DNA of 64,000 nt from Stentor roeselii (Eukaryota; Ciliophora; Heterotrichea; Heterotrichida; Stentoridae): the NCBI GenBank assembly GCA_006503475.1, contig RSEH01000086.1:62001-126000 (forward strand). Reading direction: 5' to 3'. This document shows, one piece after another, positions 36,368 through 64,000 of the stretch. Made by a program: the position numbers and the translations under genes. The notes under the pieces were generated by a model. The model did not search any database, was not told the DNA's origin, and was given only the letters and a program-made list of their open reading frames with translations. The stretch's first letter is position 1; each line of letters begins with the position of its first letter.

Positions 36368-37030
36368 ATGAATTTACCACCACTCGTTGACCCCAAAGAC
36401 CTAGGTGTTGAGAACCAGGATAAATTCGTAAAATGTAGAGTTCTGTCAGGTGCAAACATGTTCCCATCGCTCTTCATCACGTCAATCGAGCAGCTGATAA
36501 TAAAAAAATGCTTCAACTTCGCATTCGAGGTCTTCTTCGGCGTGATGTTCGAGATAAGCGAAACCCTTCAAGTGACTTCAATCGATTCCTCAAAGTTATC
36601 AATAGCCGAGTTCACCTGCACAATGCAAACTCAAAAGTTATCTTCTTTCCGTTCCCTTCAACAGAATCCAGACTTTTACCCAGTGATAAACGAAATCGGA
36701 AGCTACTTCGACATGAGCCTCGACCATCGAACTTTGACTTCAATTCAAGAAATCTTTAAAACAGTTCGAGTGAATTTGATCCTTTCAGAAGACGTTGAAG
36801 AAAAATGGGACCCGAACAATGAAATGTTTTATGCAAATCTTTTAGTACTTAAAAAAGACGGAAAATATTTATTGATGCTTGAAGTTCCTGACTTTATGGA
36901 TGAAGAAGCTCTTTTACTTGAGGAAAAAATGAGAAGGGAAAGACTTGAATATGAAGAAAGAATGAGAAGGGAAAGGAAAGAAAGGAAAAAAGCTGAAAAA
37001 GAAGCAAAAAGACTTGCTGAGGAAAATTTG
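36368..37030 (+). other. N-terminal domain and charged helix of the giant protein
   Basis: Residues 1-221. The first ~180 have mixed hydrophobic/polar composition with short strands and helices (MFPSLFITSIEQLIIKKCF, FYANLLVLKKDGKYLLMLEV) and look like a folded domain of unknown family. From about 181 the sequence becomes a highly charged Arg/Lys/Glu helix (MRRERKERKKAEKEAKRLAE) that runs directly into repeat unit 1. Confidence 0.7.
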
Positions 37031-40000
37031 ATGAGGGAAGAAGAAATTAGGACTTTTGCTATTAATCGATTTGCAAGGGATTTAAACGCTGAATGTAATT
37101 TTTATATGGAAAAAAATGACTCGGCTTTTAAGGATTTTATGAAAAATCAGGAAAAAGTTAGAAGGATTCAGGAACAGTTCATGAGAAATGAAGAGATCTG
37201 GATGAGGGAACTCATTAAAAAAGAGATTAAAAGAGAACAGACTGAAGAAAATTATTTGAAAAATGAGGAAAAAGTTACAAGGTTTTTTGTTCATAAAGCA
37301 AATAAAAAAATCCTTAAAGAATCTGCAGCTTTCGCTAATGAAGACCGACTTTCTCTAAAATGGGAAAAAATCTACCAAAAAATCAGTCATGACTCTAAAG
37401 ACTCTCTAGAATTCGAGGAAAATTCAAAAAAATCCTTCGAAAAATCAGAAAAAAATCAAGAAAAATCCTTTGAAAACTATCTTCAAAAAAGTGAAAAAAC
37501 TTTAAATTCCTTTTTAAAGTCACAGATAAAAAATTCATCAAAAATTTCAAGAAATCTAAAAAAAATCGAAAAATCTCTAAAAAAATTCATATCTGGTGAA
37601 AAAAGAGTAGAAAAAAAATCAAGAAAAAATTTAAGGATTCTTGAAGCGATTACTTTAAACTTCACCGAAGAACACGAGTTTCTTTTGCAAGTCGCTTTAA
37701 AATTCTTGAAAAAAGGAGAACATCAAACTTTAAGCTTTTCTCGGAAATTGAAACATTTCTCTGATGACCAAGGAGAAATTTGCAAAAAGAATGAAAAATT
37801 AATGATCAGGTTTAATAAACAACAAAGTAAAGTTGAAGTCAGAACTTCAAGAAGGTTAAAGGCTCTTGATACTTATTTTAAAGACTTTTTCAGTAGTTTG
37901 AATGGACTTTGCTTACAAGTCTTTAAAGCTTTGCATGAAGAGGACAGGGCAAGTTTTCAGTTTCTTGAAGATGAAAATCGATTTGGCTTGTTGGGAATTG
38001 AAAAACTTTCTGGCGAAGATGAACATCAAATTAACTTTAAAATTGAAGAAAATAAAAAAATTGAATTGCAAATTGATTTTTTACAGAAAGAATTTGATTT
38101 AAACTTGAAGTTTTACAAAAGAGAAATTAAGATTGTTGGTAAATCTCAGAAAAATCTTGAAATTTCAGATGGAGAAAGAAAGGATTTTGAAGATGAAGAA
38201 AAGAAATTGGCTGAACTGGAAAATAATCACTTAATGAAAAATGAAGAAGAATTAAAAGATTTTCTTGAATTTCAGGAAAATTTCAGGAAAAATAACCAAA
38301 ATTCAATGAAAAAGGAGAAAAAAAAAATATTGCAACATGTTTTTTTAGTTAAAAGTCTTGCATCAGGAATAACGTCTTTTTTAATCGAAAATGAAAAAAT
38401 TGTTAAAAAATTTAACTCTGGTGAAAATCATTTAATTTTTAATTCTTTTGAACAGTTAGAGTCTAATGAAAACTTTAGGAAAAAATTTGATTTTAGTGAA
38501 AGATGTCTTCTTGAGAGACAGAGAGAATCTATGGAAGAAGAAAAGATTTTCATTGAAAAAATTGTTCAACTAGTGGATGAAAATAATGGAGAAAGTTTAA
38601 AAACTCTTGAAAATGAAGAAAATTTAAGGAATTTTTTTGATCGCTTTCAAAATGATTTAATTTTTAGCACTTTATCTATCCTTGACCAAGAAGAAAAGCT
38701 TCTTAATTCTTATCAAGAAACTCTTCGAACATTAGAGAATCGAGAAATAAGAAGTCTTTTTAAAAGTGATGATGAAAGAAAATTTTATTTGAAAAAAGAG
38801 GAAAAAAATCAAAGAAACTCTAATCATGCCTTAAAAAAAGAAGACATTTTTAGACTTGAGTTTTCAAAGATTGAGCTGAAATCACTAAATCAATTTGAAA
38901 AAAACCTCGAAAATGAAGAAAAAATAAGAATTAAATTTGAGACCAATCAACAGCACCTCGTAAAAATATCTCAAAATCATCTTCATGAAAACGACCAAGA
39001 CTTAAAGTCAATTTTATCACATCTAGAAAAAAACCTTCTAAACCTTCTCCAAAACTTAAACATCGAAGACTCTTTCACCATTTCCTTCACTTTGAACCAA
39101 GTCAATCTCGAGTCAATCAATCAATCCAATCTTTCAACCCTCGAAGAAAAAGCCTCATCATTTTTAATCTCGCAACAAGAATCAGAAGTCTGCATCCAAG
39201 AATCTTTAATTTCAGAAGATCAAGAAACTTCCAATTTTTTCTCCTCAGAATCACGAAAAATGCGAAAAACGTTAAAAAATTTATCAAAAGAAGAAAAAAA
39301 TTCTAAAAAAATCTTTAAAATCGAGTCAAATGGAGAAAAATTCAATTCAGCTTTTTTAGAATCTGAAGATGAAAGGGTTAAGAGACATGAAGAAAATATT
39401 CTAGAAGTTAGAAGTCGGGCTATTATTGGACTTGATGACCAAGAGAAGGACTTTTGCCAGTTTTCAAATCTTGAAACAACTTTTAGCTTTATGAAAAATG
39501 AAGAGTTAGATAAAAGTGAGTCTTTTATGAAGAAATTTTGCTCTCAAGTTATGAGTATTTGCTCGACTGAAGCTTGTTCACTTGACTTTGAAGAACAGAG
39601 AAATAAAAAGTTTAATTTAGATGAAAATTCTTTGATTCACTTAAAAACTGAAAGACTTGAACATGAAGATTATCTTATCAGAGACTACAATAAAAAGATT
39701 AGTTCTAGACAAAGAAAATACTTGAAAAAAATAGAAGAAAATGAAAAAAATATGAAAAATTTCTTGAAAAATCAGGAAAAAAATAGAAAAAATGAATATC
39801 GAGGTTTGAGGATTAATGATTCAGATACTTTAAAAAATTTGGAGGTTATATCAAGACTTGAAAATCAAATTTTTGAAAATTTGGAAGCTTCGGATTTAGA
39901 AATTTTTGATTTTAATTCAAAAAAACATCTAATTGAATTAACTCAACAAGAAAATTTATCAATAAATGAAAGATTTTCTTGTGATTTTAACAAAATTCAG

Positions 40001-43000
40001 ATGGGCCTTGAAGTACTTACTAAGGAAGAACTTTCAAAAAATGAGAAAAATGTTAAAAGTTTCTTAAAAATTCAAGAAAATTCTAGAAAAATCACTGAAA
40101 AAGAGATGAAAAATAATGAAAAGTTGATAAAAAATATTGTAAAATATGAGAAAACTTTAAAAAATCAAATTGTTTCAGCTTTAGAAATCGCGGATAATCT
40201 TTTATCCGACTTTTCTTGTAAAGAATCATTTGTGATTAAAAATGAATCTGTTATCTTAGCTAAAGAAGAGGCCAGGTCTGTTAAATTCAACAATTCTGAA
40301 AGAAAATTGATTAAATCTTCAGTCAAATCTTTGGGTTTAGCTGATATTGAAGGATATGAAAATAACAGAATCTTGGATGAAATTAGAAATAGAGAAACTC
40401 GTGAATTAGAAAGAGAAGAAAATATTTGTTTGGAATTTTGTGATAATCAAAAAATCAAAGAAGATTTAGATTTTAGGTTTTTAGCTGATGAAGAAAAATG
40501 TTCCAAAACTTTCCTGACCTCCCAAGAAGTACTAAAATCCTCATATTTAAACTTTTTATCAGAAGAGCACAGTCATCTCATAAACTACTTCAACTCACAG
40601 CGAGGACTTGTTAAATCATTCAAGGCCGACTTAGAAGTCGAAGAAAGAATTCAATTAACTTTTCTAAAAGCACAGAAAAAATCACAAAAAGAGTCAATTT
40701 CAAGTTTTTTCGATTTCGAGTTGATTACCCAAAAATTCCTAAAAAAACAATTAAAATATTCTACAAGAGTCTTTTCTAAAATCACTCTAGAAGAAAATCT
40801 AACAATTCACATAAACCTTTTTGAGTTGAAATTAAGAGAATCTCATATTTTTTCACTAGAAAACAACGAAAATTTCATTGAAAATTTTAATAAAACCTCG
40901 AAAAAACTGCAAAAATCACTTGAAAAAATCATCAAAAAAGAAGAAAATCTTTTTGTAGAATTTTCTGAACTTCAGTTGATGAAAGTCAAACAAACCATCG
41001 AAAATTTATTAGAAAATGAACGAGAACTGAAAAATTTCAATGAAAATCAAGAGGTTTGTGAGAAGTGTTTAGTAAAATCTTTGAAAAAACAAGATGATTT
41101 TTCCTCAAACTTTATAAAAAAAGAGGAGAAAATAAGGAAAAAAGAAATAAGAAAATTTAGAAAAAATGATAAAGAAATTCAAACTTTCTTCAAAATTTCG
41201 AAAACAATAGAAAAAGACCACCTGTCTCAATTAGAAACCTCTGAAGACAACATAAAAAACCACATCATCTCCGAACTTTCCTCACAAAAATCATCTAGAA
41301 CCTCATTAAAAACAGAAGAAAATTCATCAAACCTTCTAAAATCTTTCCAACAATCCTTCTCAAACTCACTAAAATCCTCCTTATCAACAAACGAGTCTCT
41401 AACCCTCCAAAAACAATCAATCGAGTTGAAATCATCTGCATCAACCTCATCAACCCTATCCTTAGAAGACTCCTATCTTAAAAATTTCAACAAAAACCAA
41501 AAAAATCTTTCAACCCTTCAATCCAAAAACTTAAAATCTGAAGAAAAACAACTTCACGTCTACCTTTCACAACAAACCCAAAAACAAAATTTTTCAATAT
41601 TTTCTCTTGAATCTGAAGAAAAGTTCATAATTTACTTCAAAAAATTCGAAGAAAATTTCAAACAATCCAGTTTTGAAATCCTTGAAAAACAAGAAAAAAA
41701 CTCAAAATTTTTTTTCAATAAACAATTCGAGATCTTTAAAAAAAGTGGTCTTGAAATGGAATCTCAAGATAATTTCATGAAAAAATTCTTTTCTGAAGAA
41801 AATTTTTTTGCTTTAAATAACTTCAAGTCGTTAAAAGAAGATGAAAAGTATAACAACTTGATTCAGTCTTTTGAAAAAAAATTAAGTTTTAAGGAAAAGT
41901 CTTTGATGGATAAAGAGGAATCGTCGATTCAGACTTTTTCTCAGAAACAAGAAGAATTTTTTACAAAGTCCATGAATTTGATGGAAGCTGAAGAAAATTA
42001 TGCAAGAAACTTTTTTTGTATTGAAAAAAATCTGGTGAATAAAGGATTTTGTTTGATGGAAGAAGAAGAATATTTTGTTCAGGTTTTTGTTGAAACTGAG
42101 GAAAGTGAAAATTTCTTGGAAATGGAAGGAATGGAAAAAGTTGATATTGAAAGGAAAAATTTTGCCTTGATGCAGAAAAATCTTTCAGAAAAAACTATTT
42201 CATGTCTTTTAAATGAAGAAAAAAATATGAAGGAGTTTAATTTTCATGAAAAACAAGAGAAATTAAAGACCTTTGAAAAAATGGAAGAAGAAAATAATTT
42301 CACCTTTAATTTCAGCCTAAAAGTTTCAGAATTTCTAGAAAAAATCAGGAAAAATTTAGAAGATCATGAAAAAATCATGGAAAATGTTTCAGTTATTCAA
42401 TCAAATCAAGAAAAAGATACTTTTTCTCATCTTCTCAGCCAAGAAAACCAAAGAAAACAACATGAAAAAAAAGAAAAGAAAAACGAAGGAAAATGCATTA
42501 AAAAGATGTTACTTGAAGAAAATTTCAATTCACAGTTTTTTGGAATTGAAACCATTGTCGGAAAATCAGAACTTGACGGAATGAGACAAGCTCATTTATA
42601 TCGAAAAGCTTTTGTCGGCATTCAGGAGCAAGTCAGGATTGAAAGCTTGGCAAGTCTTGAAGAAAATGAAAGATTTTCTAAAGAATTCATTTCTAATGAA
42701 CTTGAAACGGAAAATAAAGAATGTTTTTCACTTGATGATGAGGAAGAGTCTTTAAAACACTTCTTAAAAAAATCAGTTAAACTTGAAAAAAATTGCAGAA
42801 AAATATTGAATCATGAAGAAAAAATCAATTTTTCTATAAAAAAGTTTGAAAAAGGATTTAATCATCAAGAAACTCAAAAAATGTTTTTATTGGAAGAAGA
42901 AAATCTCGCTTTTTTTAAGGAAGAATTGAAAAATGAATCGAAAGTGCAGGTTTCTTTATTTGAGGAAGAAAAATTAACAAGACATTTTCAGATAATTCAA

Positions 43001-46000
43001 ACTCAGTTTGTTGAAAAGAATGCTGAAGACTTGTTTAGGGCTGATGATGACTCTTTGGAATTTTTAAAAAAAGAAATTCTTTTGCAGGATGATGTTTGTA
43101 AAGCGCTTTCATTGGATGAAAATGAGACTGGAAAGATTTTGAAAAAAGAGGAAAAGATTTCGCATGGTTTGAGGAAAAAAGTTATGGATTTGGAAAAGTC
43201 TCAGAAATTATTTGATAAGTTGATAAGAAAAGCAGAAAGACAGACCAAGCGAATGATGGCCAAAGAAGACTCTGATAAAATTGAAAAATGTAAAATTCAA
43301 GAAACTCTCGAAATATCATCATCTACTCAGTTATTACTTGAAGAACTATCTGGACGAGAAATTCAAGAAAATAGTCTAAATCTAGAAAATTATACATTTC
43401 AAGACTTAGAAAAAAATGATTTTCATTCAGTAACTGTTTATTCACAAGAAATTAAATTAAATCTTCTTATTACTCAAAAAATGGCCTTAGAAGAAGAATT
43501 CATCAGAAACTTTTACAAAGAGGAAGCTCAAATCGAATTCAGAGATGGAAATTTACTTGAAAATGCTGAACTAAGAATGATATCATTTGAAAAAGAACAA
43601 AAGTACTTTAGAGATATTTGGTTTGAGAGAATGATTAAAGATGAGATTCAATTCTCTGAATTCATTGAGGTTGAGGAGTCAGAACATCAAAATGAAATCA
43701 TTAAACTTGAGCAAGAGTTTAAATTGATGAAAAGTTTTGAAGAGATTGAAAGATCTTTAAGACAAAATAATTATAAATTTCTGAGAGCAGAAGAAAAACT
43801 AATGAAATCATTTGAAAGCATGCAAAAAAAATTGGTTAGTCAAGAAGTATCTCGAATGAATACTGATGAATCGACAATGATAAACTTCTCATCATCAGTA
43901 AGCTCCCTGATTCTCCATGAATTAAACTCCTTAGTCAAATCAGATGAAAGCACAAGAAAAATCAATAACGATCTAAAACTTTCTCTAGAAAAATCTCTTT
44001 TCCTTCTAGAAAATGAAGAAACCTCAGTAAAAACTTATACAAAAATAATCAACTCAATTGAAAAGAAAACAAGAAAAATGATGTCAAATCTAGATGGTCT
44101 TCAATCAAACCTACATCTAAATCAGCTCTCAAAAGAAGAAAAAAATTTCAATTTCTTCGAAGCAGAAGACAATTTTTCTATTTCACATAAAGAAACTTCC
44201 TTAAACCTCGAACTTTCTGCTTTAAGATCTCTTGAATCACTAGATGAAGAGCAGACTTCTTTCAATCTTTTTCAATTAAAACTAACCCAAATAAATCTCA
44301 AAAATTTGCAAAAAGAAGAAAAAAACACCAGAAAAAATATCAAGTCGCAAGAAAAGTCAAATAAAAACTCTCGTCATTTTATGAGAAAAGAAGAAAAAAT
44401 CATGAAAATATTTGAAAAAAATGAAAAAGAACTTATTTTTGCAAACTTTGAAAAACTTGGAGAAGAAGATATTTTTATTAATGAATTTGAAAAAACTGAA
44501 CAACAAGGAAATAATTATGAAAAAAATCGACTTGATTTAGAGTTTGAAGAGATTTCATCATTCCTCAAGCATCAAAATTCTTTGATTCAAGAAAGCATGG
44601 AAAAACTTAGCAAAGAAGATGATTTAATGAAAAGATTTATCGAAATTCAACTTTCAATAAACGAGGAGTCTTTGAAAGACATGGCTTTTAATGATTTTCA
44701 TGCAAATTCATTCTTTTCTGAATTAATTTTGAATACTGAGAGAAATTCTGAACTTCTTTTTGTGGAAGATCAAAAAAGTAGTGAATTTTGGGTAATGGTT
44801 GAAAAGAGGTCACAACAAGTTAGACATAAAATTTCGAAGGAAGAAAAAATTCGGGTAACTTTTGATAAATCTGAGAGAAAAGTCAATCGATTGAATAAGA
44901 GAAATTTACAAACTGAAGATTTAAGTGTTTTAGAAGATCTTAAAATCAAAGACGAACTATTAAAACAATCAGAAAATTTACTAGAAAAAGAAGAAATTCT
45001 TACAATTTTCATTGAAAAAGAACTAATAAAACTTCAAGACCAATCATTGAAAAATCTGGAATTTCATGATAAACAATCTCAAAATTTCCTTCTTTTCCAA
45101 TCATCTTCAAGAGAATCAACAAAAAAATCTCTAAGAACTGAAGAAAAATTACTGAAAGATTATGAAAATGCTGAAGAAAAATTAATATCAAGAAATGATC
45201 ATTTTCTTCAAAAAGACGAAAATTATTTAACTTCTTTCAACAAAAAACATTTATTGCTTGTCACTCATCTTTGTCAGAAAATGATTGAAAGTGAAGAATT
45301 TACTAAAAGATTCAGTGTTTGTGAAAAGTCAGAACAAGTCATTCAGAGAAAAAACATGGAAAATGAAATGAATGAAGTGATGCAATTTGATAGATTTGAA
45401 AAACAATTAAATGAATTATCATTGAAAAAATTGATTCAAGAAAATGAGAAGATGGAAAATTTTTATGAAGTTGAACAAAAGATAAGATTGCTTAGTTCAG
45501 GTGAAATGGCAAACCAAGAATCATCCTCATCATCCTTTATAATCCGAGAAAATTCACATAGAAGTTCAATCATAACTTCCTTAAAATCAGCAGAAGACCT
45601 TCTATCAAAATTCTTAAAGATCAATGAGAAAAAGGCAAATTCTCAAATAAATAAACTATCAAAAGAGGATAAACTTCGCAGGGCATATGATAAAAATGAG
45701 AGGAAAATTTCAAGAGAAAACAAAAGACTTTTAGCTGTACAAGACAAAGAATTAATGGAAACAATAACAAAACATGGAGATCTCACACTCTTATTTACTA
45801 ATATGATGGAAAAAGAAGAAAATGATTTAAACCTTTTCAAAAAACTTTCTGAGGAAAGACAACTTTTGTCTTATCAAGAAATTGAATCAAATGATTATCA
45901 AGGCAAAGATTTTGATTCTTTTCAGAATAATTTCATTATTTCTTTAAATAATCAAATGAAACTCCAAGATCAGTTCATTCAACAACTTTTGAAAACTCAA

Positions 46001-58000: not shown

Positions 58001-61000
58001 ATTCAAAATCATTTAGAAAAATTTTTGGCTTTCGAAGATCAGCTTGGAATGAATTTTCAAAAAACTCAAGAAAAAATCATTCTTTTTACTTCAGAAATAC
58101 TTGAAAATAACGAAATTTTTATCAAAAATTTCTGCGAAAATGAAAATCGAATTGAAAAACAATCATTCTTCGAATTGGAAAATGAAAGGAAAAAAACAGA
58201 AGAATTAGAAAAAAATTGGAAAATTATTTGTTTTGAAGTTTCTGAAAAAATGGAAAAATTGGAAAAAATTGATGAAAAGTTTGAAGAGACTTTAGAAAAA
58301 TTTGAAGAAAAGGTTAAAGAACAGATGCAAGACTGTGAAAACTATTCTTTAGATTATAAATTAATTGAAATTTCAAAGACTACAGAAGAATTTGAATTAC
58401 TCGAAAAAGAATCAGAAAAAATGATAAAATTTTTAGAGAAAGAAAAAAAGGAAATGGAAAAAGAAGTATCAGGATTAATATCAGAAGAAAATTTCTCTGT
58501 TTCAATTATTATCATCGAGCAGAATCTCATTCAAGGATCGATTAATTCAATGCTCCTCGAAGAACAATCAAAAAACCACTTTTCAATCACCCAAGAAAAT
58601 TTCATTCATAAAACCAGGACAATTCTTTCCACTCAAGAAAAACTTCGAAAGTCCTTCGAAAAATCAGAGAGAAAATCAATTCGGTCAAAAAAACGATTTC
58701 TTGTCGCAGAAGATTCAGAAAACCTGAAACATCAAAAAAATCTTCAATTAATTCAAAGCATCTCATCAAAATCTCTAAATAAAGAACAAAAAATAATGAA
58801 AAATTTCACAAAATCATTGGAAATTCTTAGAATAAGCTCAATGAAAGATTTAGAATTAAATGATCTGCAGATTGAAAATTTCAAATTATTAGAAAATCAG
58901 ATTATTACTCATTCAATCGAAAATTTAGAAGAAGAAGAAGAAAAAATGAGAAATTTCTTGATTAATGAAAATGAAAATGTGGGAAAAAATAAAGGTTTAC
59001 TTGATCATTATGAAGTTATTTCAAGAAAATTCATTGAAAATGAAGAGAAATTGAAAGAGGGATTTGTTAGTTGTTTGGGGGGGAATGAATGTTTTGTAAA
59101 AGTTTTTGAGAATATTGAAAACTCTAGAGTTAGTCGTGAACTTGAAAAAATCGAAGAGCAAATCAAAGAAATGAACTTTTTCCTAGAAGAGGAGAAAAAT
59201 CTCATCAAAAGAAACCTGAATTTTATTAACAATGAGGAGAAATATTCTCAAATTTTAAATAAATTTGAAAGCAACTCATGCATATCAATCCGATCATTTT
59301 TAGAAAAACAAGAAGATCTCGTTCATGCAGTCAACAATAAAAACGCATCACTTTTACTTGAAATAAAATCAAATCTAGAAACAGAAGAAAATCAACAAAA
59401 ACTCTTCACTCAAAAAGAATTAAAACTTATAACCTCCATCACTAAAAATTTATCAAAACAAGAAAAAAACCTTCATTCCATCTTAAAAACAGAAAGAAAA
59501 AAATCAAGACACTGTAAAAGACTTCTGATTTCAGAGGACTCAAGCCTTTCATCCTACGAAAACACTTTAAAATCAATTGAATTATCTTTAACATCAATTC
59601 TAGAAGAAGAAGAAAATCTTCAAAGATCATTTATCGACTACTGTAAAACTTCTGAACTTTCTCATATAAGCAGGCTAGAAGAAAACTCTTTAAACCTCGC
59701 TTCTTTCATATCCTCTGAAGACTTTATCATTAAATCCTCAGTCAGAGGTCTGGAATTCCAGGAATTATTTATAAGAGAGTTCATTAAAGAACAAAAGATT
59801 CACGCCGATCATGAAACTTCGGAAATAGTCTTCGAGGAAAAATTTGAGAAAGAATTGGAAAAAAGTGTTAAAAGATTACATCAAAGTGCAAGAATGGACC
59901 TTGAATATCAGGAAAAATCGATGATCAAGTTTTATGAAGAAGAAAGGGGTAGAGCTTTAAAGGAGTTTGATGTACTTGAGAGGGAAAATTATGGAACTTT
60001 GGAGTTTGAGTCGATTGTTGGACAGTATGAAGGAAGAGAAAGTGAGAGGATGAATAGTGAAGAAGCCTTCCAACAATCATTCAAATCATTTGAAGAAATT
60101 TCCACCACCAACGAGTTCAAATCTCTAGAATCAGAAGACTTAAAAACCTCCAATTTCCACCTAAATCACCTAAAAACCTCATCAAAAACCCTCGAAAAAC
60201 TCGAAAAACAAGAACTTTCCACTCAAGCCTTTCTAGAAACCGAAAAATCGCTGATCCAATCATCATTAAGCCAAGCCCATATCGAAGACTGCCAAATCCA
60301 AACCTTCTACAAATCCGAGTCAATCGAAATAAAATCATCCTGCAACTTCCTCTTATCAGAAGAATCTTTAACGACCTCTTCATCCAAATCTTTTTTTCAA
60401 TCACAGAAAACTGCATCAAAAAGTTTATTCAAAGAAGAAGAATTCACAAAAATCTTCAAAATTCACGAAGCCGAATTTGAAGAAAGCCAAAAAAAGGACT
60501 TAGAAGATTCTGAAAATATTTGCAAAACTTTTCTAGACCAAGAAGTTCAGATGTGTAGAAACTTTGAGGATTATTTAAACTTGCAAGAAAATATCATCAA
60601 AAAGTTTTATGTTGATCAGGGCTTGACTTGTGAAAATCAAATGGTTTTCTTGGAAAGTAATGAAAATTTTGATAGGGAGTTTAAAGTGGCTGAAGGAAGG
60701 AATTGTAAGGATAGTTATAAGATGTTAATGAAGGAGGAACAGAATTTGATACAGTTTTATTATGGAGAGGTGGATGGAGGGAAGGAAGAAGAGTTTTTGA
60801 TGGAACAGGAACTGAATGAAAGAGATGAGTTTTTGAAATTTCAAGAAAGGTTTAGGGGGAATAATATGAGATTATTGTCAAATGAAGATAAATACTTACA
60901 AGACCATCTCATCAACTTCTCATCTTTACAATCTTCTATATTGGAAAATTTAACTCTTGAAGACAAGAAAGCCTCTGAATTAAAATTGAATTCATCAAAA

Positions 61001-64000
61001 ATAGAGCATCAATCCAGAAAAATTCTAAGAACCGAGGAAAGATCAACAGTAAAACAAGCAAAAAACGAGTTCAGAGAGCAAAGATCAGAAACAAAACATC
61101 TAATAAAAGAAGATAAATCTACATCTCGATTCGAAAGAGCCTCAAGAAAACTTACTTCATCATCTTTAATCAAGATGAATGAGTTTGAAACTTCTCAGCA
61201 TTTATCAGGAGACTCTTTAAATGACCTTGAAAATAATTCAAGATTTTCTTTAAATCTAGAAGATCAAAACATTGAGAATTTTTGGAACTATGCAAAAGGA
61301 ATGGAAAATAAAACAGTCTTTGAAATGGAGAATGAAGAGAAAATAATGAATAATTATATTGATCTTGAGATGAATGTGAACCTTAATGAAGGTGAGTTAA
61401 TGTATTTAGAAGAAATTGGAATCAAGAGGTTTTTGAGAAATGCTTTTAGCATATGCTCGACTGAAGAGTTTTCTTTAGAGTCTCAGGATAAGTTTAGTAG
61501 ATTTATCAATGATGAGGAAAGTAGCCAGATGTTGAATGAACTGGACTTAATGAGCATTGATGACATTTTCAGAGAAAAATATCTTAACAAACAAACAAAA
61601 AAATGCAATAAATCTATCCAAGACTTAGAAAAAGAAGAAAAAAATAGAGGAATCCTCCAGAGGGAAGAAAATCTCATCAAATTAAATAACCTTAAATCAC
61701 TGGAACTCGAGGAAAACATAACAAGAACTTTACTTGCAGATGAGAGAATTCTTCAAGAAAAATGCCTAAAAGACTTCGAACAAGAGTCAAACCTTCAAAG
61801 CATCCATTCCTCATCCGAGTTTTCCCTTCGCCAAACTTCATTTTCATCTCTCCAATCCGAAGACGACTATTTCCATTCCCATTTAAAAACCCAGCTAAAA
61901 CAAGAAAACAACAACAAAAAATCTCTTCTAATCGAAGATCAAACACTAAAATGTTTCCTAATCGACGAAAAGAAAAACGCGAGCAAGTCTCAGATCTCAA
62001 TGAAAACAATCGAAAAACTAAAAAATTCTTCTAATTCCAACGAAAACAAACTAAAAGAAAAAACATTCAAAAACCTCGAAATCGAATTTTCCCTTCAAAA
62101 AATCCAAGAAAAATCAGAAAAATCTCTAAACTCAAAAACCTCAAAAATCATCGAAAAATCTGAATTTGACTTAAAAAAATTTTTATCTCAAGAGCACTCA
62201 CTTCAATCAAAAAACATAAAAACTCTTGAATTCGAAGACTTGATATCAAAAAACAGAGTCAATCTTCAACTTGAACTCACAGATATCGTCACCCACGACC
62301 TTGAAAAAGAAGAACTTCTTCTAAAAAAACTAGCAAAAGACGAAATCTCTTCACAAATAATCGCAATTGAAAAACTTGAAGATGAGGAAAAAAATTCCAG
62401 AAAATATTTGAAGGACCAAGGATACAAGGAGAAGTTCGAAAGATATATCATGGAAAAGGAAATGAAAAAAACTATGAAGTGCTTCAGAATCCAATCTGGA
62501 GTTCTCGAATCACAATTGCAAAAAATAGCAGAGCAAGAAAAATTAACAAAGTCATTCCTCGCTGCTCAAAAAGCTCAAATATCCGACGACTTGACAATTT
62601 TAGAAACAGAAGACGAGTTAAACCTTTTATTCACGAAAAAACAATTAAAGGTGCACAAGGTGCACCTAAAGAAATTCAAGAAAATTTCTTTAAACTTAAA
62701 AGTTTTCTTATCATCTGAAAAATCTTTAAGAAAAGCTGTTAGGGTTGAATTGGAAAGACAGGAAAATTTAACAAAAAGCTTTTTACAGTTAGAAAAAGAA
62801 GCAAGTGCCTTAGAAATCCATCTTCTTGAAGCGGAACTTCAAGAACTTGAAGACTTGCAAGGGACTCTACTAGAGATTCAGAACTACGAACTTGCAAGAA
62901 TGACGAAAGAAGAAAGAACAGGAAAACTTCTTCTAAGAACAGATAAAAATATTTCAGAATCAATGAAAAAGAAGCTGAAATTCGAAGAAGATTACTTAAA
63001 ATCTTTCCTTTCTCAATTAAAATCTCAAGAAAATTCAATTATCAAGTCACTGACAAGACTAGATAAAGATCTGACGATATTCAAAAAGAACCAAAAAAAT
63101 AACCAAAATAATTTTTCTTCTTTTCTCAACAAAGAAGAAACTTTCCTTAAAAAATTCTTAAAATTCCAAGAAGACCAAACCGAGACTCAAATAAAAAACA
63201 TGACAGAACAAGAAAAAATCAGCAAAAAATACCAAAACTTCCTGAAACAACTTGAAGAAGACCAAAAACGTAAGAAAGAAGAAGAAGAAAAATACTTTTC
63301 TTCTCTTCGTAAAGTTGAACTCCAGAAAATCGCTGCTCGACAAAGGCTAACACGTGAAAAAACCATGAGACTTGAAAGACTTAACAGCATTCGACAAGCA
63401 GAACTTGAAAAAAAGGCAGAAGAAGAAGATTTAAATGAGTCTCTTGTTCAAGACTCTCCATTGGAAGTCAATGAAACTGAAGATGTCCTTGCAGCGGAAT
63501 CGAAAATCATTGAAAGTCTTGTTTTGATCTGTGGAAGCTTCTTTTGTAGTCAATGTTATCGAATGTTAAAAAGAAGTTCTTTGTTTTTGAAATGTGATAA
63601 ATGTTGTGCCTCGGCTTTTAATAAACAATTACCGCCTTCTAGCTCGGGAAATCAAAGACCGAAAATACCTCCTGGGTCGGTTTGTGTTGGATGTGAAGCT
63701 ATTATTAAAAGAGGGGAAATTGTTCAGTGTATTTGTTGTTATATTCGACAAGAGTTCTTGAAGGACTTCTCACCGATTACTTGTGGAGGGTGTAATCATA
63801 ATGAAAGTGTCTCTTGGGTTGATACTTATGTTGGGTCTAGGTATGAGATGATCAATTGTGGGTTTTGTCAGAGAAGTGTTAATTATTTGTATGTTGTTGA
63901 AATTTGTACTAGTTGTCATGATCAGGTCTGTCTTCATTGCTTAAGAAAAAACAACTTTTTAGCAATATCCGTGTGCAACGAATGCCACAGTCGACGACAA
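36368..64000 (+). CDS. Giant repeat protein, >9,211 residues, 3' end outside window
   Basis: One frame stays open from the ATG at 36368 to the last base: 27,633 nt, 9,211 codons, no stop and no need for an intron. The start lies 41 bp after NOP56. Order of parts: a globular-looking domain (residues 1 to about 180), a Lys/Arg/Glu helix (about 181-221, e.g. EEKMRRERLEYEERMRRERK), 351 tandem 25-residue repeats (222-8994), a charged linker, and a domain rich in CxxC pairs still continuing at the window edge. The visible part alone is about 1.1 MDa. The repeats are Glu/Lys/Ser/Asn/Phe/Leu-rich with virtually no Pro, and predict one very long helix or coiled coil. I recognise no family by sequence. 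By analogy, the giant spasmin-binding proteins of Spirostomum are the closest concept; a cortical or microtubular filament is another option. Confidence 0.9.
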   Translation, partial: MNLPPLVDPKDLGVENQDKFVKCRVLSGANMFPSLFITSIEQLIIKKCFNFAFEVFFGVMFEISETLQVTSIDSSKLSIAEFTCTMQTQKLSSFRSLQQNPDFYPVINEIGSYFDMSLDHRTLTSIQEIFKTVRVNLILSEDVEEKWDPNNEMFYANLLVLKKDGKYLLMLEVPDFMDEEALLLEEKMRRERLEYEERMRRERKERKKAEKEAKRLAEENLMREEEIRTFAINRFARDLNAECNFYMEKNDSAFKDFMKNQEKVRRIQEQFMRNEEIWMRELIKKEIKREQTEENYLKNEEKVTRFFVHKANKKILKESAAFANEDRLSLKWEKIYQKISHDSKDSLEFEENSKKSFEKSEKNQEKSFENYLQKSEKTLNSFLKSQIKNSSKISRNLKKIEKSLKKFISGEKRVEKKSRKNLRILEAITLNFTEEHEFLLQVALKFLKKGEHQTLSFSRKLKHFSDDQGEICKKNEKLMIRFNKQQSKVEVRTSRRLKALDTYFKDFFSSLNGLCLQVFKALHEEDRASFQFLEDENRFGLLGIEKLSGEDEHQINFKIEENKKIELQIDFLQKEFDLNLKFYKREIKIVGKSQKNLEISDGERKDFEDEEKKLAELENNHLMKNEEELKDFLEFQENFRKNNQNSMKKEKKKILQHVFLVKSLASGITSFLIENEKIVKKFNSGENHLIFNSFEQLESNENFRKKFDFSERCLLERQRESMEEEKIFIEKIVQLVDENNGESLKTLENEENLRNFFDRFQNDLIFSTLSILDQEEKLLNSYQETLRTLENREIRSLFKSDDERKFYLKKEEKNQRNSNHALKKEDIFRLEFSKIELKSLNQFEKNLENEEKIRIKFETNQQHLVKISQNHLHENDQDLKSILSHLEKNLLNLLQNLNIEDSFTISFTLNQVNLESINQSNLSTLEEKASSFLISQQESEVCIQESLISEDQETSNFFSSESRKMRKTLKNLSKEEKNSKKIFKIESNGEKFNSAFLESEDERVKRHEENILEVRSRAIIGLDDQEKDFCQFSNLETTFSFMKNEELDKSESFMKKFCSQVMSICSTEACSLDFEEQRNKKFNLDENSLIHLKTERLEHEDYLIRDYNKKISSRQRKYLKKIEENEKNMKNFLKNQEKNRKNEYRGLRINDSDTLKNLEVISRLENQIFENLEASDLEIFDFNSKKHLIELTQQENLSINERFSCDFNKIQMGLEVLTKEELSKNEKNVKSFLKIQENSRKITEKEMKNNEKLIKNIVKYEKTLKNQIVSALEIADNLLSDFSCKESFVIKNESVILAKEEARSVKFNNSERKLIKSSVKSLGLADIEGYENNRILDEIRNRETRELEREENICLEFCDNQKIKEDLDFRFLADEEKCSKTFLTSQEVLKSSYLNFLSEEHSHLINYFNSQRGLVKSFKADLEVEERIQLTFLKAQKKSQKESISSFFDFELITQKFLKKQLKYSTRVFSKITLEENLTIHINLFELKLRESHIFSLENNENFIENFNKTSKKLQKSLEKIIKKEENLFVEFSELQLMKVKQTIENLLENERELKNFNENQEVCEKCLVKSLKKQDDFSSNFIKKEEKIRKKEIRKFRKNDKEIQTFFKISKTIEKDHLSQLETSEDNIKNHIISELSSQKSSRTSLKTEENSSNLLKSFQQSFSNSLKSSLSTNESLTLQKQSIELKSSASTSSTLSLEDSYLKNFNKNQKNLSTLQSKNLKSEEKQLHVYLSQQTQKQNFSIFSLESEEKFIIYFKKFEENFKQSSFEILEKQEKNSKFFFNKQFEIFKKSGLEMESQDNFMKKFFSEENFFALNNFKSLKEDEKYNNLIQSFEKKLSFKEKSLMDKEESSIQTFSQKQEEFFTKSMNLMEAEENYARNFFCIEKNLVNKGFCLMEEEEYFVQVFVETEESENFLEMEGMEKVDIERKNFALMQKNLSEKTISCLLNEEKNMKEFNFHEKQEKLKTFEKMEEENNFTFNFSLKVSEFLEKIRKNLEDHEKIMENVSVIQSNQEKDTFSHLLSQENQRKQHEKKEKKNEGKCIKKMLLEENFNSQFFGIETIVGKSELDGMRQAHLYRKAFVGIQEQVRIESLASLEENERFSKEFISNELETENKECFSLDDEEESLKHFLKKSVKLEKNCRKILNHEEKINFSIKKFEKGFNHQETQKMFLLEEENLAFFKEELKNESKVQVSLFEEEKLTRHFQIIQTQFVEKNAEDLFRADDDSLEFLKKEILLQDDVCKALSLDENETGKILKKEEKISHGLRKKVMDLEKSQKLFDKLIRKAERQTKRMMAKEDSDKIEKCKIQETLEISSSTQLLLEELSGREIQENSLNLENYTFQDLEKNDFHSVTVYSQEIKLNLLITQKMALEEEFIRNFYKEEAQIEFRDGNLLENAELRMISFEKEQKYFRDIWFERMIKDEIQFSEFIEVEESEHQNEIIKLEQEFKLMKSFEEIERSLRQNNYKFLRAEEKLMKSFESMQKKLVSQEVSRMNTDESTMINFSSSVSSLILHELNSLVKSDESTRKINNDLKLSLEKSLFLLENEETSVKTYTKIINSIEKKTRKMMSNLDGLQSNLHLNQLSKEEKNFNFFEAEDNFSISHKETSLNLELSALRSLESLDEEQTSFNLFQLKLTQINLKNLQKEEKNTRKNIKSQEKSNKNSRHFMRKEEKIMKIFEKNEKELIFANFEKLGEEDIFINEFEKTEQQGNNYEKNRLDLEFEEISSFLKHQNSLIQESMEKLSKEDDLMKRFIEIQLSINEESLKDMAFNDFHANSFFSELILNTERNSELLFVEDQKSSEFWVMVEKRSQQVRHKISKEEKIRVTFDKSERKVNRLNKRNLQTEDLSVLEDLKIKDELLKQSENLLEKEEILTIFIEKELIKLQDQSLKNLEFHDKQSQNFLLFQSSSRESTKKSLRTEEKLLKDYENAEEKLISRNDHFLQKDENYLTSFNKKHLLLVTHLCQKMIESEEFTKRFSVCEKSEQVIQRKNMENEMNEVMQFDRFEKQLNELSLKKLIQENEKMENFYEVEQKIRLLSSGEMANQESSSSSFIIRENSHRSSIITSLKSAEDLLSKFLKINEKKANSQINKLSKEDKLRRAYDKNERKISRENKRLLAVQDKELMETITKHGDLTLLFTNMMEKEENDLNLFKKLSEERQLLSYQEIESNDYQGKDFDSFQNNFIISLNNQMKLQDQFIQQLLKTQKIITFQISDTLNQEEKQINHFLNKEQLIIKQQKENLNENEEDRKIFEEFEVSMKQTSSELLEKEMSLMIDFIEKEKEISEKSFMFLEQEKREMKDYKLCENNRMDDNSLKMAEEELVLSSFIENESELMKKNQRYLENEDQVCLVISKSLNKVYHSISHKLSKEEKNRKKFDKVDRKLGRDSKRHIANEDLKTFERFSEEKGLQLSLQNNLCLEENLMKFFNESLNTFELKTSEKLETCNLEVFELNELIKKVEKVNVEEMNMDEDSRINFIKNEDEIGIIFSDMLEKEDENTNRFVSQQLFQSLEITKTLDFHEQNLKTFINLEIFKNQVEKEFMKSELKLTKNYLQLEKSLIEKSTLSLNHEEDDFQIFIDSLYQKNQELTSKMAEEDSLTRVFFNFERSSIEGNISSIESEDNFLKKFSKSHEKKSNSQINKLSKEDKSRKAFEKYERKIARENKRKLSALDLELLETVKFLQDLTFISSSMMEQEENFSNLFKKLSEERQLLNYQEIESNDYQGKDFDSFQNDFIISLNNQMKLQDQFIQQLLKTQKIITFQISDTLNQEEKQISYFLNKEQLIIKQQKENLNENEEDRKIFEEFEISMKQSSSELLEKEMSSMIDFIEKEKEISEKSFMFLEQEKREMKDYKLCENNRMYDNSLKMAEEELVLSSFIENESDLMKKIQASLESEDKNFSTISKKLNKSTHSISRKLSKEDKVRKSFEKSERKHGRDVKKTLDKEELNTSEIKNKEESLELLCENSLSFIESWMKKHDEKLKELELKTYENLELSNSEVFIINNLRINLEKENRKAIRFEEGENRDFIKCEKQIGMIIEDNLEIEEQKIFKFISDLQSKSLEICHTLQTIENYNQSIIKFEDSSIKAQRKSIKHELESQKNFLSLEKSLIEASHQKLQVEENFLVSFLIMNDQMIQDSFLIMAGEEKFVLKFLESESLSRQEHISSLESEEKILCKISKSHEKKSNSQIYKLSKEDKYRKIFEKNERKSSRENKRKLGSQDLELIESITVLERLTSNYFNLLENEENLSKLFKKLSDERQHDLFQEIESNDFQGKIFHSFQNDLIVDGNKRLSNQDEFIKKYSKTEEILKVDNFRNLLEEEKYNRDIVYQEGKMIKQVEERLNEDEKFGKILEECQFSINHSNSAFLEKEMNFMMNHLQLEKELSKNTILLLNQEQDQIITLNIQLNSKNHENLKTITEEDQLSSIFIENESKLIEIIKISLDNEAQWCSNIDKSLKEVNIFTSHKLSKEEKTRKFYEKSEKKIRKNLKQQIEIEDSKIVEKMRKEDNFEVSCQNHLFLEDASMKKNDGKLKKFELKNHEKLEICDLENFETINFSSEAQNRNIKELGFEEDLNKGFFKNELEINIFACNLLEKEERNIVKFLSGMTLESLEICQKMEKIDTELKNYLYSETFQNNSQNDLLRKEYQLTKKFIKIEDFFAKNLQNSFQIEESFQKTFIENTEKNKANLLFKMAEEESSSFRYTEQEQLENQKTISSLESEDKLTSKVSKTHDKKVNTQTRKLSKQDKIRKLFEKSERKQTRDSKRLLSIEDLDLINILQIQEDLQVSCANFLEVEEKITVSFDEERFDRERFEIEQVKDHDFNSNNFYLEEKELANEMAKKLEIEEFEIRSFIRKENEIGLKSRELLETGDFLMKKFELDEKKIRKEAVLKLDQGETFIGNFECEEDSVNSFQNTNLENELKISLNFLTNEKKLREKTIKFLTVEERKTRSFLKSLHDSQEAIFVQMSILEAELMTYLEQENLIVEQTYYSLKSEENDYLSFERQSKSLSSSISSSLNQENKLKKSFDLIQKSLSESIQKNLETQKFHSLEFYSSQSDLELKSINEMKIQDNLTNDYQLAGLSSEHQNFNSLEQNEAKNSNFSLFENQLKDSIQKNMDLEESLIKNFDEFEKKSGVKNFDFLDNEEKNAKVFIKKNEKLRKKLRSHLKNDEKSVKGLEKNLNSGIFKDLESLESEMELSKSYQKQENILIELNIEKMNEEEKIMKKFEKDEKSFVEDIRKSMDLEEVLNKDVFEKEVGFMRGMRDIIMMEDNLIQMLSKSLENGLLVLGKGLETEEQSRYLFESKENDIKNSSLKSLENNDFSTSKTFSIQESIQASHKKILEKQDSLSSLHENFSKSLQHKTLKNLEFNENKTQEINLIQQEKINQNIEKMIIEEKNVSKVKNFERRFESLCFEFLDDEEKMMKDQKKTENFSRFSVFDEMEKEDFRGKNIENGQKNEKKKENIFLEEEDEKMENFHELEKMVREKNLRYLEEEEKIMEKFLEIEKSCIKEDFFNIKLEDNLMNSFIQVEHKENIEVSSSLLLEDNLIQNLSNLIENVLKTLSNQLLNEEKLTDLFNNLEKNSEKHSQQDLATEDSKLSEIIKNLSKIQKNHLKFLENEEKTSTSNHDFQETLQSSTCEFLTKNDKNSSNLLISIFQITKSTINHLENEENSNKKLLNSQKSNENQVISNLLLQEKYSKDFKIFENFSIQQVLRKMSENEEVKNNFDLIEKGLKEDSLNFLKFEFRLREKFVDEEEITSKGVLKSLESEDVRIRILEYEIQRKISENLENLIDEESKLVEVLTFEDISTRKNRRSLRHEEKSWKKASKSHEKELASHSKHLSKQEKQTKTFEKLEKKSRKSNLKSLSSEDSHLSETKNLSFKLESTCAETLEIQENSSKSFIFKSLTFEQFSSNQLKINEKLSKSFFSNESFQVSLMIKKMTEEEAQAILFSSEENVFRGKISQVIISEEAKTKLFNEREILMNETENLTLLEEESKNQDFYKKESKLTKSLKKIFEEKEEENLEFLKKERKENEKFFNELIQEDLKRKEILNEESFFIDKISKKLIEEESFVNDFYLIESKICESLLKHLEGEETELKKINKKENFQQELVFDKIIQNEVQLQEFKMKEKINLELHLAKMIENEGETREFLQNELVIAECFNCQMNLLEEENKEILMKEEKNYFNVFSQMVGNEAETCEFLESESKLLKSISRKMKESEMENKKFIKNFSIETESLFNKMLEEESHTIEILQNELTFNDFLLKQMKDLENEMKDYVKSENILNCDVYKFMCENEFESKHFFKNESFLQEKNIRKMWEEEAGQQDLLSNKEIEDSCIVSKMEKEESLTKELIKEEENLNVFLIKNIHNEDSKTKKFMKNESKLAESLAKKLDEENKENNEFVQTEHLQCQMLFSSLFNEEASQRDFLRLETEMNESLKCQMLENEDQLKEILDCEVTIRESLLDLLNQQETETKDLIIENLKFNQNTSNQMDEEEILTKVFLENESHSLTAHLNKLSEVETQIKELLHCEASSKTSLVNKMIEEENEERKLETERLLSMKILFEKMNLEEVSTKQFLFNESSISETLGSQMVQNDSLNKKFLENKSFLEESQLEKMMKNDENIKNFLNIQSSLIQKVKNQMTEVETQTKEFQDLKSSLHKKLLKKLNQEKKETKEFLIKELEINEKISKTFKEIEFDLKDFLKKESFLNENLLKNMNQEESSTKYFIEKEGIFVESLINKMFEEEVETKKFLKNLALLENSSGRKMFEEEVNVRELNVNKVLSSESLFEEMNREEELMKDFLRDENFLKENLFLKLGQEELENKDFLENNSIEQSFHCKKMLGEETEINEYVDRESIINKDLCCKMIEEETKTENHLKNQLLLNQKLFSKLIKAETKTQNHLKHEKSIKKHLLSKFNKEELETKELLDDQIKINSFSLFNLQENEAETNEFLKNQSLSQDFLLTTLNQSEVEKIEFLQSELKLNNSVFLEMKELEAETKKLSTSESLSKDLIFNKMIEEEKEIQEFLRLESNFNKSQMALMSEADEYTIGINDALKSVNYFESFNFEKENLRDCEFYLKECERMQLTLHSLDLEESLMKDFLHNQTNSNPSKSLSSEETFSRLFLDYQRETIEKSLQDLIQSETQSSTHSNLTKNIIKSSTDHLSNEEKLRKSFEKTERKLKRSAKRKMASQDLKLLETLNFQEKIQNHLEKFLAFEDQLGMNFQKTQEKIILFTSEILENNEIFIKNFCENENRIEKQSFFELENERKKTEELEKNWKIICFEVSEKMEKLEKIDEKFEETLEKFEEKVKEQMQDCENYSLDYKLIEISKTTEEFELLEKESEKMIKFLEKEKKEMEKEVSGLISEENFSVSIIIIEQNLIQGSINSMLLEEQSKNHFSITQENFIHKTRTILSTQEKLRKSFEKSERKSIRSKKRFLVAEDSENLKHQKNLQLIQSISSKSLNKEQKIMKNFTKSLEILRISSMKDLELNDLQIENFKLLENQIITHSIENLEEEEEKMRNFLINENENVGKNKGLLDHYEVISRKFIENEEKLKEGFVSCLGGNECFVKVFENIENSRVSRELEKIEEQIKEMNFFLEEEKNLIKRNLNFINNEEKYSQILNKFESNSCISIRSFLEKQEDLVHAVNNKNASLLLEIKSNLETEENQQKLFTQKELKLITSITKNLSKQEKNLHSILKTERKKSRHCKRLLISEDSSLSSYENTLKSIELSLTSILEEEENLQRSFIDYCKTSELSHISRLEENSLNLASFISSEDFIIKSSVRGLEFQELFIREFIKEQKIHADHETSEIVFEEKFEKELEKSVKRLHQSARMDLEYQEKSMIKFYEEERGRALKEFDVLERENYGTLEFESIVGQYEGRESERMNSEEAFQQSFKSFEEISTTNEFKSLESEDLKTSNFHLNHLKTSSKTLEKLEKQELSTQAFLETEKSLIQSSLSQAHIEDCQIQTFYKSESIEIKSSCNFLLSEESLTTSSSKSFFQSQKTASKSLFKEEEFTKIFKIHEAEFEESQKKDLEDSENICKTFLDQEVQMCRNFEDYLNLQENIIKKFYVDQGLTCENQMVFLESNENFDREFKVAEGRNCKDSYKMLMKEEQNLIQFYYGEVDGGKEEEFLMEQELNERDEFLKFQERFRGNNMRLLSNEDKYLQDHLINFSSLQSSILENLTLEDKKASELKLNSSKIEHQSRKILRTEERSTVKQAKNEFREQRSETKHLIKEDKSTSRFERASRKLTSSSLIKMNEFETSQHLSGDSLNDLENNSRFSLNLEDQNIENFWNYAKGMENKTVFEMENEEKIMNNYIDLEMNVNLNEGELMYLEEIGIKRFLRNAFSICSTEEFSLESQDKFSRFINDEESSQMLNELDLMSIDDIFREKYLNKQTKKCNKSIQDLEKEEKNRGILQREENLIKLNNLKSLELEENITRTLLADERILQEKCLKDFEQESNLQSIHSSSEFSLRQTSFSSLQSEDDYFHSHLKTQLKQENNNKKSLLIEDQTLKCFLIDEKKNASKSQISMKTIEKLKNSSNSNENKLKEKTFKNLEIEFSLQKIQEKSEKSLNSKTSKIIEKSEFDLKKFLSQEHSLQSKNIKTLEFEDLISKNRVNLQLELTDIVTHDLEKEELLLKKLAKDEISSQIIAIEKLEDEEKNSRKYLKDQGYKEKFERYIMEKEMKKTMKCFRIQSGVLESQLQKIAEQEKLTKSFLAAQKAQISDDLTILETEDELNLLFTKKQLKVHKVHLKKFKKISLNLKVFLSSEKSLRKAVRVELERQENLTKSFLQLEKEASALEIHLLEAELQELEDLQGTLLEIQNYELARMTKEERTGKLLLRTDKNISESMKKKLKFEEDYLKSFLSQLKSQENSIIKSLTRLDKDLTIFKKNQKNNQNNFSSFLNKEETFLKKFLKFQEDQTETQIKNMTEQEKISKKYQNFLKQLEEDQKRKKEEEEKYFSSLRKVELQKIAARQRLTREKTMRLERLNSIRQAELEKKAEEEDLNESLVQDSPLEVNETEDVLAAESKIIESLVLICGSFFCSQCYRMLKRSSLFLKCDKCCASAFNKQLPPSSSGNQRPKIPPGSVCVGCEAIIKRGEIVQCICCYIRQEFLKDFSPITCGGCNHNESVSWVDTYVGSRYEMINCGFCQRSVNYLYVVEICTSCHDQVCLHCLRKNNFLAISVCNECHSRRQ
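45833..46410 (+). repeat. Recent segmental duplicate, copy A
   Basis: This segment is nearly identical to 47483-48060, displaced by exactly 1,650 bp. I count 14 differences in 540 bp (45841-46380 against the copy), about 97% identity and no length change. Flanking repeats at the same offset are much more diverged. Confidence 0.88.
47483..48060 (+). repeat. Recent segmental duplicate, copy B
   Basis: Partner of 45833-46410 at an offset of 22 units. Differences are spread evenly and include both silent and replacement changes. Confidence 0.88.
63350..64000 (+). other. Linker and cysteine-pair-rich C-terminal domain of the giant protein (partial)
   Basis: After the last repeat comes a charged helix (RLERLNSIRQAELEKKAEEE) and a short acidic linker. 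From about 63,530 there are repeated Cys pairs: CGSFFCSQC, CDKCC, CVGC, CICC, CGGC, CGFC, CTSC, CLHC and CNEC. This is typical of an array of zinc ribbons or treble-clef fingers. The domain is cut by the window end, and I cannot assign a family. Confidence 0.75.

Follow-up and report, generated by a model that had tools for sequence, protein, structure and literature searches.

We describe a giant gene in a 64,000-nt window of a contig of the ciliate Stentor roeselii (RSEH01000086.1), in which 351 units of 25 residues follow one another in register with a single change of length. We consider it probable (about 0.6) that the product is a phase-locked helical rod or ruler of the cytoskeleton, which spaces two end domains and presents a docking face every 3.75 nm. 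The initial annotation of this DNA covered the repeat array; the end domains, the paralogues and an 11-unit repeat are added by the present analysis.

The giant gene and the register of its repeats

Translation from 37031 showed that the middle of the open reading frame (ORF) consists of 351 units of 25 residues (37031-63349) with no stop. The array is as first described, but the ORF reaches beyond it, from 36368 to a stop at 64040 (Table 1). The complete gene (36368-64042, + strand) is uninterrupted and encodes 9,224 aa with a mass of 1.097 MDa and a pI of 5.3, ending in TAATAA at 64040, 40 nt past the window edge, and reading does not call for any stop reassignment. The contig that holds the window measures 163 kb and the genome that was searched 44.4 Mb (522 contigs); no obvious telomere was seen at contig ends in the eight stretches inspected.

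Table 1. Features of the giant gene, in positions of the window
Feature	Position	Strand	Remarks
Giant ORF within the window	36368..64000	+	open throughout
N-terminal globular domain, aa 1-178	36368..36901	+	OTUB (Peptidase C65) fold predicted by model
E/K/R-rich charged stretch leading into unit 1	36902..37030	+	helix 179-199 in the model
Units 1-276	37031..57730	+	25-residue repeat without length change
11-unit (825 nt) higher-order repeat, units 104-191	44831..51430	+	strong here; traces only elsewhere
Unit 276	57656..57730	+	holds the array's sole proline (codon 57713); shares its final two residues with the next register (the 2-codon loss)
Units 277-351	57725..63349	+	register moved by -6 nt
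Stretch after the last unit	63350..63430	+	ELQKIA segment nearby, shared with the 1,402-aa paralogue
C-terminal Cys-rich domain	63506..64000, on to 64039	+	weakly B-box-like

Unit starts had been placed at 37031+75n for n=0-275 and, after one loss of two codons, in a shifted register for 75 more units. The translation agrees on both counts, the start after the loss falling at 57725 and not at 57731. Autocorrelation of the translated frame gave a sharp peak at lag 25, with an identity of 0.181 against 0.087 ± 0.009 (z = 10.8) for a background of lags 2-399 not divisible by 25. When the units were scored with a leave-one-out profile at shifts from -12 to +12, 339 of the 351 fitted best at shift 0; the exceptions are 12 units that are not best in register, and nine units have a negative in-register score. 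Compensating indels within units are few: with a profile that was not leave-one-out and shifts from -3 to +3, shift 0 gave the best fit for positions 1-9 in 338 and for positions 10-20 in 304 of the 349 units scored. The initial annotation had named the lack of a sharp 25-residue peak and an abundance of such indels as findings that would speak against it, and neither was observed.

The constancy of unit length can be set against the amount of substitution. A minimum spanning tree over the 351 units comprises 5,108 amino-acid changes, which a tree with free inner nodes may reduce by half at most, and one length change. The end domains of the family, in 14 pairwise comparisons with the giant, show 0-0.058 gap events per substitution, and from these ratios roughly 30-250 length changes would be expected in the array; the two gap events in 176 substitutions that separate the end domains of the giant from those of its nearest paralogue mean that the expectation may be as low as about 30. 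Because duplication of whole 75-nt units keeps the register anyway, the tree speaks only against later small indels. With one change found against ~30-250 expected, and 36 of 37 units of a paralogue in register without an indel (see below), the selection on unit length proposed earlier is supported. The accompanying statement that the sequence had drifted freely was too strong, as dN/dS is 0.35 at non-anchor positions, even if this value is biased downwards by the choice of pairs. In the same pairs (16 of the 66 lag-22 unit pairs in units 104-191, namely those at least 60% identical) it is 0.29 overall and 0.08 at anchors 1, 4, 5, 11 and 15, and, since picking similar pairs lowers all three values, nothing but the difference between the anchors and the remaining positions can be taken as firm.

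The 11-unit repeat is marked by the basic unit LSKEEKxRKxFxKxERKxxRxxKR, and two blocks lying 22 units apart (45881-46405 and 47531-48055) are identical at 510 of 525 nt. Charge autocorrelation at lag 11 gave p values of 0.21, <0.0005, 0.47 and 0.12 in four successive regions of the array; in units 192-275 lag 11 is the best identity lag (0.235 vs a mean of 0.202), and basic units reappear at 53906, 57875, 58625 and 59450. As an array-wide rule the 11-unit repeat was dropped, the lag-11 charge signal being non-significant in three of the four regions, and we read it as a recent amplification and not as a design rule. We also dropped the idea that the units fit the tubulin lattice (11 of them measure ~41 nm), since 3.75 nm differs from 4.1 nm and nothing spoke for such a fit.

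Helix and conserved face

The array contains one proline in 8,773 residues, compared with 218 in 8,840 residues from 11 ORFs elsewhere in the window, and its hydrophobicity has a Fourier peak at 3.572 residues, that is, 25/7. Pairs of E(i) with K/R(i+4) are enriched (441 vs 283 expected, +10.8 sd) and acid-acid E-E pairs at i+4 are depleted (-13.3 sd); base-base K-K pairs at the same spacing are enriched as well (327 vs 233, 6.6 sd), which counts against the helix-pairing case. AlphaFold2 returned a single helix for an 11-unit block (residues 2-274, mean pLDDT 89.8, pTM 0.28), run as a monomer on 30 aligned blocks taken from the array itself, an input that favours a helix. The Fourier peak, the lone proline and the continuous model bear out the helical phase suggested in the initial annotation, and the middle of the protein is predicted to be one continuous alpha-helix with 7 turns and 3.75 nm per unit. 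With a helix rise of 0.15 nm per residue, 351 units would measure ~1.32 µm and 37 units ~139 nm, if straight and unbroken. The phase break and the only proline fall in the same unit, and this coincidence probably marks a hinge.

Information is found mainly on one face of this helix, formed by L1, E4, T/L/S8, F11, E/Q15 and L/I18, plus E/D5. Position 1 is hydrophobic in 348 and position 11 in 310 of the 351 units, and position 5 is E/D in 309. Two rails, L1/L12 and F11/L18, run along the face, with a stripe period of 25/7 that corresponds to 7+7+11 residues, and they flank Glu4 (59% of units) and Glu15 (50%), which stand in the middle of the hydrophobic face. The hydrophobic a/d core of a two-stranded heptad coiled coil was not found, other helix packings being possible, and with Glu4 and Glu15 where they are, a simple two-stranded coiled coil is improbable. 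Packing along the two rails, or a dedicated partner, suits the face better.

End domains

The structure model and a structural comparison assign an OTU fold to the N-terminal domain, which we predict to be a catalytically dead OTUB fold. In the catalytic columns of alignment A4 the giant has Asn30 in place of the Cys and a Lys in place of the His, and among the eight family members the Cys is kept in two and the His in none. The active-site motif aligned to OTUB with an hhalign E value of 3e-4 in one comparison, at a probability of 38%. Pfam PF10275 was above its cut-off in none of the eight family N-terminal domains, Pfam and NCBIfam together gave only matches below cut-off for these domains (best E 0.015 and 0.018), and a sequence comparison of the domain with the PDB returned five rows with nothing convincing (best E 0.16). 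Apart from the pseudo-OTUB family, which this profile misses, the genome is rich in otubain-like (Peptidase C65) genes, with 21 PF10275 matches on 16 contigs, 20 of them over the cut-off; the giant is absent from these matches (20 candidates scored).

The C-terminal domain has 16 Cys that are invariant in eight paralogues, spread over about 150 residues, and it is predicted to bind several zinc ions. Its match to a B-box (2ffw) is weak, with E 0.0026, and PF22586 was found in one of the eight C-terminal domains at E 0.0055 and 17.2 bits, against a cut-off of 27.

Paralogues and database searches

A sister gene of 1,402 aa (C407) combines the two end domains with 37 units of the 25-residue repeat. 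It matches the giant with E 4e-51 and 43% identity in the N-terminal domain and with E 2e-77 and 67% in the C-terminal domain, and the two share an ELQKIA segment near 63350..63430, partly in unit 351. In its middle, all 21 profile matches >9 bits are in one phase, 36 of the 37 units are best in register (mean 1.4 and maximum 6 in 200 shuffles), no indel was found and no proline occurs from residue 34 to 1201. A search with this middle matched only C407 itself and the giant (49 of 56 candidates scored). The first four units of the two proteins pair somewhat above average, at ranks 42, 833, 291 and 402 of 12,987, and no pairing above the rest was found when the last units were compared one-to-one.

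The C-terminal domain occurs in seven further loci (E 2e-31 to 2e-12), six of which (L067-L072) can be read as a single frame; the counts of eight family members and alignments A2-A4 leave out L066, the C85 paralogue, whose frame is interrupted. The N-terminal parts of the six readable loci align weakly with that of the giant, at 14-17% identity. When the N-terminal domain of the giant was searched against its own genome at E 0.1, it found, beyond C407, two weak matches on C40 (E 0.005 and 0.03) and a weak one on C125 with a stop inside, so that kinship to the other five rests on the 14-17% alignment. The 25-residue repeat gave no match >9 bits in five of the six readable paralogues; the one left out, L071, has 412 aa and a nearly absent middle. 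Some middles in L067-L070 are simple and E/K/R-rich, such as RLEKERLEKE in L069, as in single alpha-helices, and L072, the C40 paralogue, seemingly has two tandem N-terminal-like domains (two weak matches in one frame). As far as the sequences tell, the members of this family seem to keep their ends and to exchange their rods, with the giant as the extreme case.

Outside this genome, no homologue of the giant was found among 1,097 candidates of about 5,100-16,100 aa, drawn from 5.8 billion proteins by words over residues 1-3000, or among 563 candidates of 3,300-10,500 aa drawn from the same number by residues 1-260. As a control, the neighbouring channel had 854 relatives in that protein database, including a Stentor protein. 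In viral contigs none of 85 pattern matches for the giant was confirmed, a PDB sequence search with the 25-residue repeat gave no match, and Pfam assigned the giant no family at E up to 10, coiled-coil included, with filters that drop most weak matches. No published description of the 25-residue repeat was found in the open-licence literature.

Neighbouring genes and other loci

The control channel is a four-domain cation channel encoded in one frame of 1,741 aa (21874-27099, - strand); among 120 listed relatives the best named one is from Stentor coeruleus, at 39%, and others reach 68%. A protein from a JGI metagenome matches 83% of the channel with 100% identity, which indicates that this organism or a twin of it is present in a public metagenome. 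A Nop56-like gene (34647-36326) is seemingly broken by a 15-nt intron, GTAAGAGTTATTTAG (window 35814-35828), placed there because the Nop56-like frame runs on beyond it. Introns of 15 nt are typical of heterotrich ciliates. With a length divisible by three and TAG as its last bases, this one resembles a stop codon. The intron, the unreassigned stops and the Stentor match of the channel point to a heterotrich other than Stentor coeruleus; two exact SSU rRNA patterns gave no match. The 13 ORF ends in window 1-36326 are TAA or TAG, with no TGA, one of them being the TAG of the probable intron, and TGA may seldom serve as a stop in this genome.

Elsewhere in the genome, five loci (L033-L037, on C31, C237, C185, C186 and C257) encode a strongly conserved, multi-copy centrin-like EF-hand protein of 176 aa; they are 0-9 residues apart but differ at 57-84 of 531 nt, and L037 also has a diverged 176-aa relative nearby.

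Discussion

In the reading that we prefer, the rod would keep its N- and C-terminal domains a set distance apart and would present, every 3.75 nm, an equivalent docking face to a partner that itself repeats, either small proteins in a row or further rods alongside. Gain or loss of whole units would alter the length of the rod by full periods. An indel of one or two residues would turn all downstream sites off the docking face, and such indels would be purged for this reason. The initial annotation had likened the array to a filament or a lattice of binding sites, which it may be. A fuller version, which we put forward only tentatively, is that of a micrometre-scale ruler headed by a pseudo-deubiquitinase and ending in a Cys-rich tail with several zinc ions, whose uninterrupted, phase-locked helix would have its length set by unit number (37 or 351), in a heterotrich family with interchangeable middles. 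If the model is true, the helix is an unusually long continuous one, and it suggests that a structural rod can be capped at its end by a dead ubiquitin-enzyme fold. The giant and C407 offer a natural experiment, with like ends and a like unit but unit numbers that differ tenfold. Should the number of units set a length within the cell, the old problem of how micrometre distances are measured and held in the cortex of giant ciliates becomes directly testable.

Two alternatives name a partner for the rod and thus overlap with the preferred reading, so that the likelihoods given to them are not exclusive. One of them, which we find doubtful, takes the giant as the backbone of a Ca2+-driven contractile mesh that binds spasmin or centrin like GSBP1/2, one EF-hand protein wrapping each 25-residue unit and Ca2+ binding shortening the array. 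Some 25 residues are about the helix footprint of one EF-hand protein, as in IQ arrays, and the agreement of the period with this footprint favours such a mesh, as do the host, a heterotrich and hence of a group with reported giant backbones, and the five loci for a conserved 176-aa EF-hand protein, which we read as centrin. GSBP1/2 are reportedly giant spasmin-binding proteins of Spirostomum. Such scaffolds contain hundreds of binding-site repeats (PMC12661445), and the Sfi1 motif is given as Ax7LLx3F/Lx2WK/R (PMC5112337). This motif occurs 0 times in the array, where the relaxed 8-4-1 form, [LIVM]xxx[LIVMF]xx[FW], is found 16 times against 42 after a full and 30 after a column-preserving shuffle, and the reverse 1-4-8 form is about as frequent as chance predicts (43 vs 41 and 47). 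The 10 Trp in 8,773 residues also speak against the mesh, and an acidic face (E4, E5 and E15) in a protein of pI 5.3 is a poor fit to acidic centrins. PF08457 (Sfi1) matched nothing in the giant at E up to 10 and nothing elsewhere in the genome, control genomes being likewise silent, and the IQ motif is present 6 times in the array against 3.3 expected, its strict form 0 times. If GSBP1 or 2 turned out to be the giant, the novelty would fall, and one would still have to account for the phase-lock, the OTUB cap and the short sister.

The other partner could be the rod itself. In a self-assembling fibre, a possibility that we rate as rather unlikely, rods would pack laterally through the L1/L12 and F11/L18 rails into a staggered bundle, the period setting the stagger. 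The hydrophobic stripe of period 25/7 with its two rails suits such packing, which needs a strict period, and the short paralogue could co-assemble; against it stand the Glu residues midway across the hydrophobic face, present in roughly half of the units or more, and the lack of any Pfam family, coiled-coil included, at E up to 10 with filters that drop most weak matches. It is much less probable, in our opinion, that the register is a by-product of array growth, in which unequal recombination of whole 75-nt units and homogenisation keep the period without selection on phase. Recent whole-unit duplications are visible in the 510/525-nt block and the 11-unit repeat, as this explanation would have it, but most units are far diverged, the nearest unit differing at 30 of 75 nt on average, and this divergence implies time enough for indels to arise. 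The equal register of C407 without an indel and the greater constraint at the anchors than at other positions also argue against a by-product.

Among known systems, the otubains (OTUB1/OTUB2, Peptidase C65) resemble the N-terminal domain of the giant in fold and in the alignment of the active-site motif. The giant differs from them in lying below Pfam detection, in lacking the catalytic Cys and His and in being fused to a rod and a Cys-rich domain. The B-box zinc domains of MID1 and ANCHR resemble the C-terminal domain by weak profile matches that stay below the curated cut-off. One B-box needs fewer than 16 Cys, and the 16 invariant Cys of the giant are more than those of a single B-box. Sfi1-type proteins, PtCenBP1 and GSBP reportedly resemble the giant in their long helix, their many short repeats and their ciliate and heterotrich setting; the giant is unlike Sfi1-type proteins in having no Sfi1 motif, no conserved Trp and an acidic face. 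Nebulin, the giant ruler of the thin filament of muscle, has repeats of about 35 residues in 22 sections of seven (PMC3859903), and it shares with the giant its size, a mostly helical structure, one short repeat along most of the protein, super-repeats, and a step that goes with a partner lattice. The giant has a unit of 25 and not 35 residues, no Pfam match and other end domains, and its 11-unit repeat is local and not global like the super-repeats of nebulin. The comparison would be one of how the two proteins may work, as long helical molecules in step with a repeating partner, and not one of kinship.
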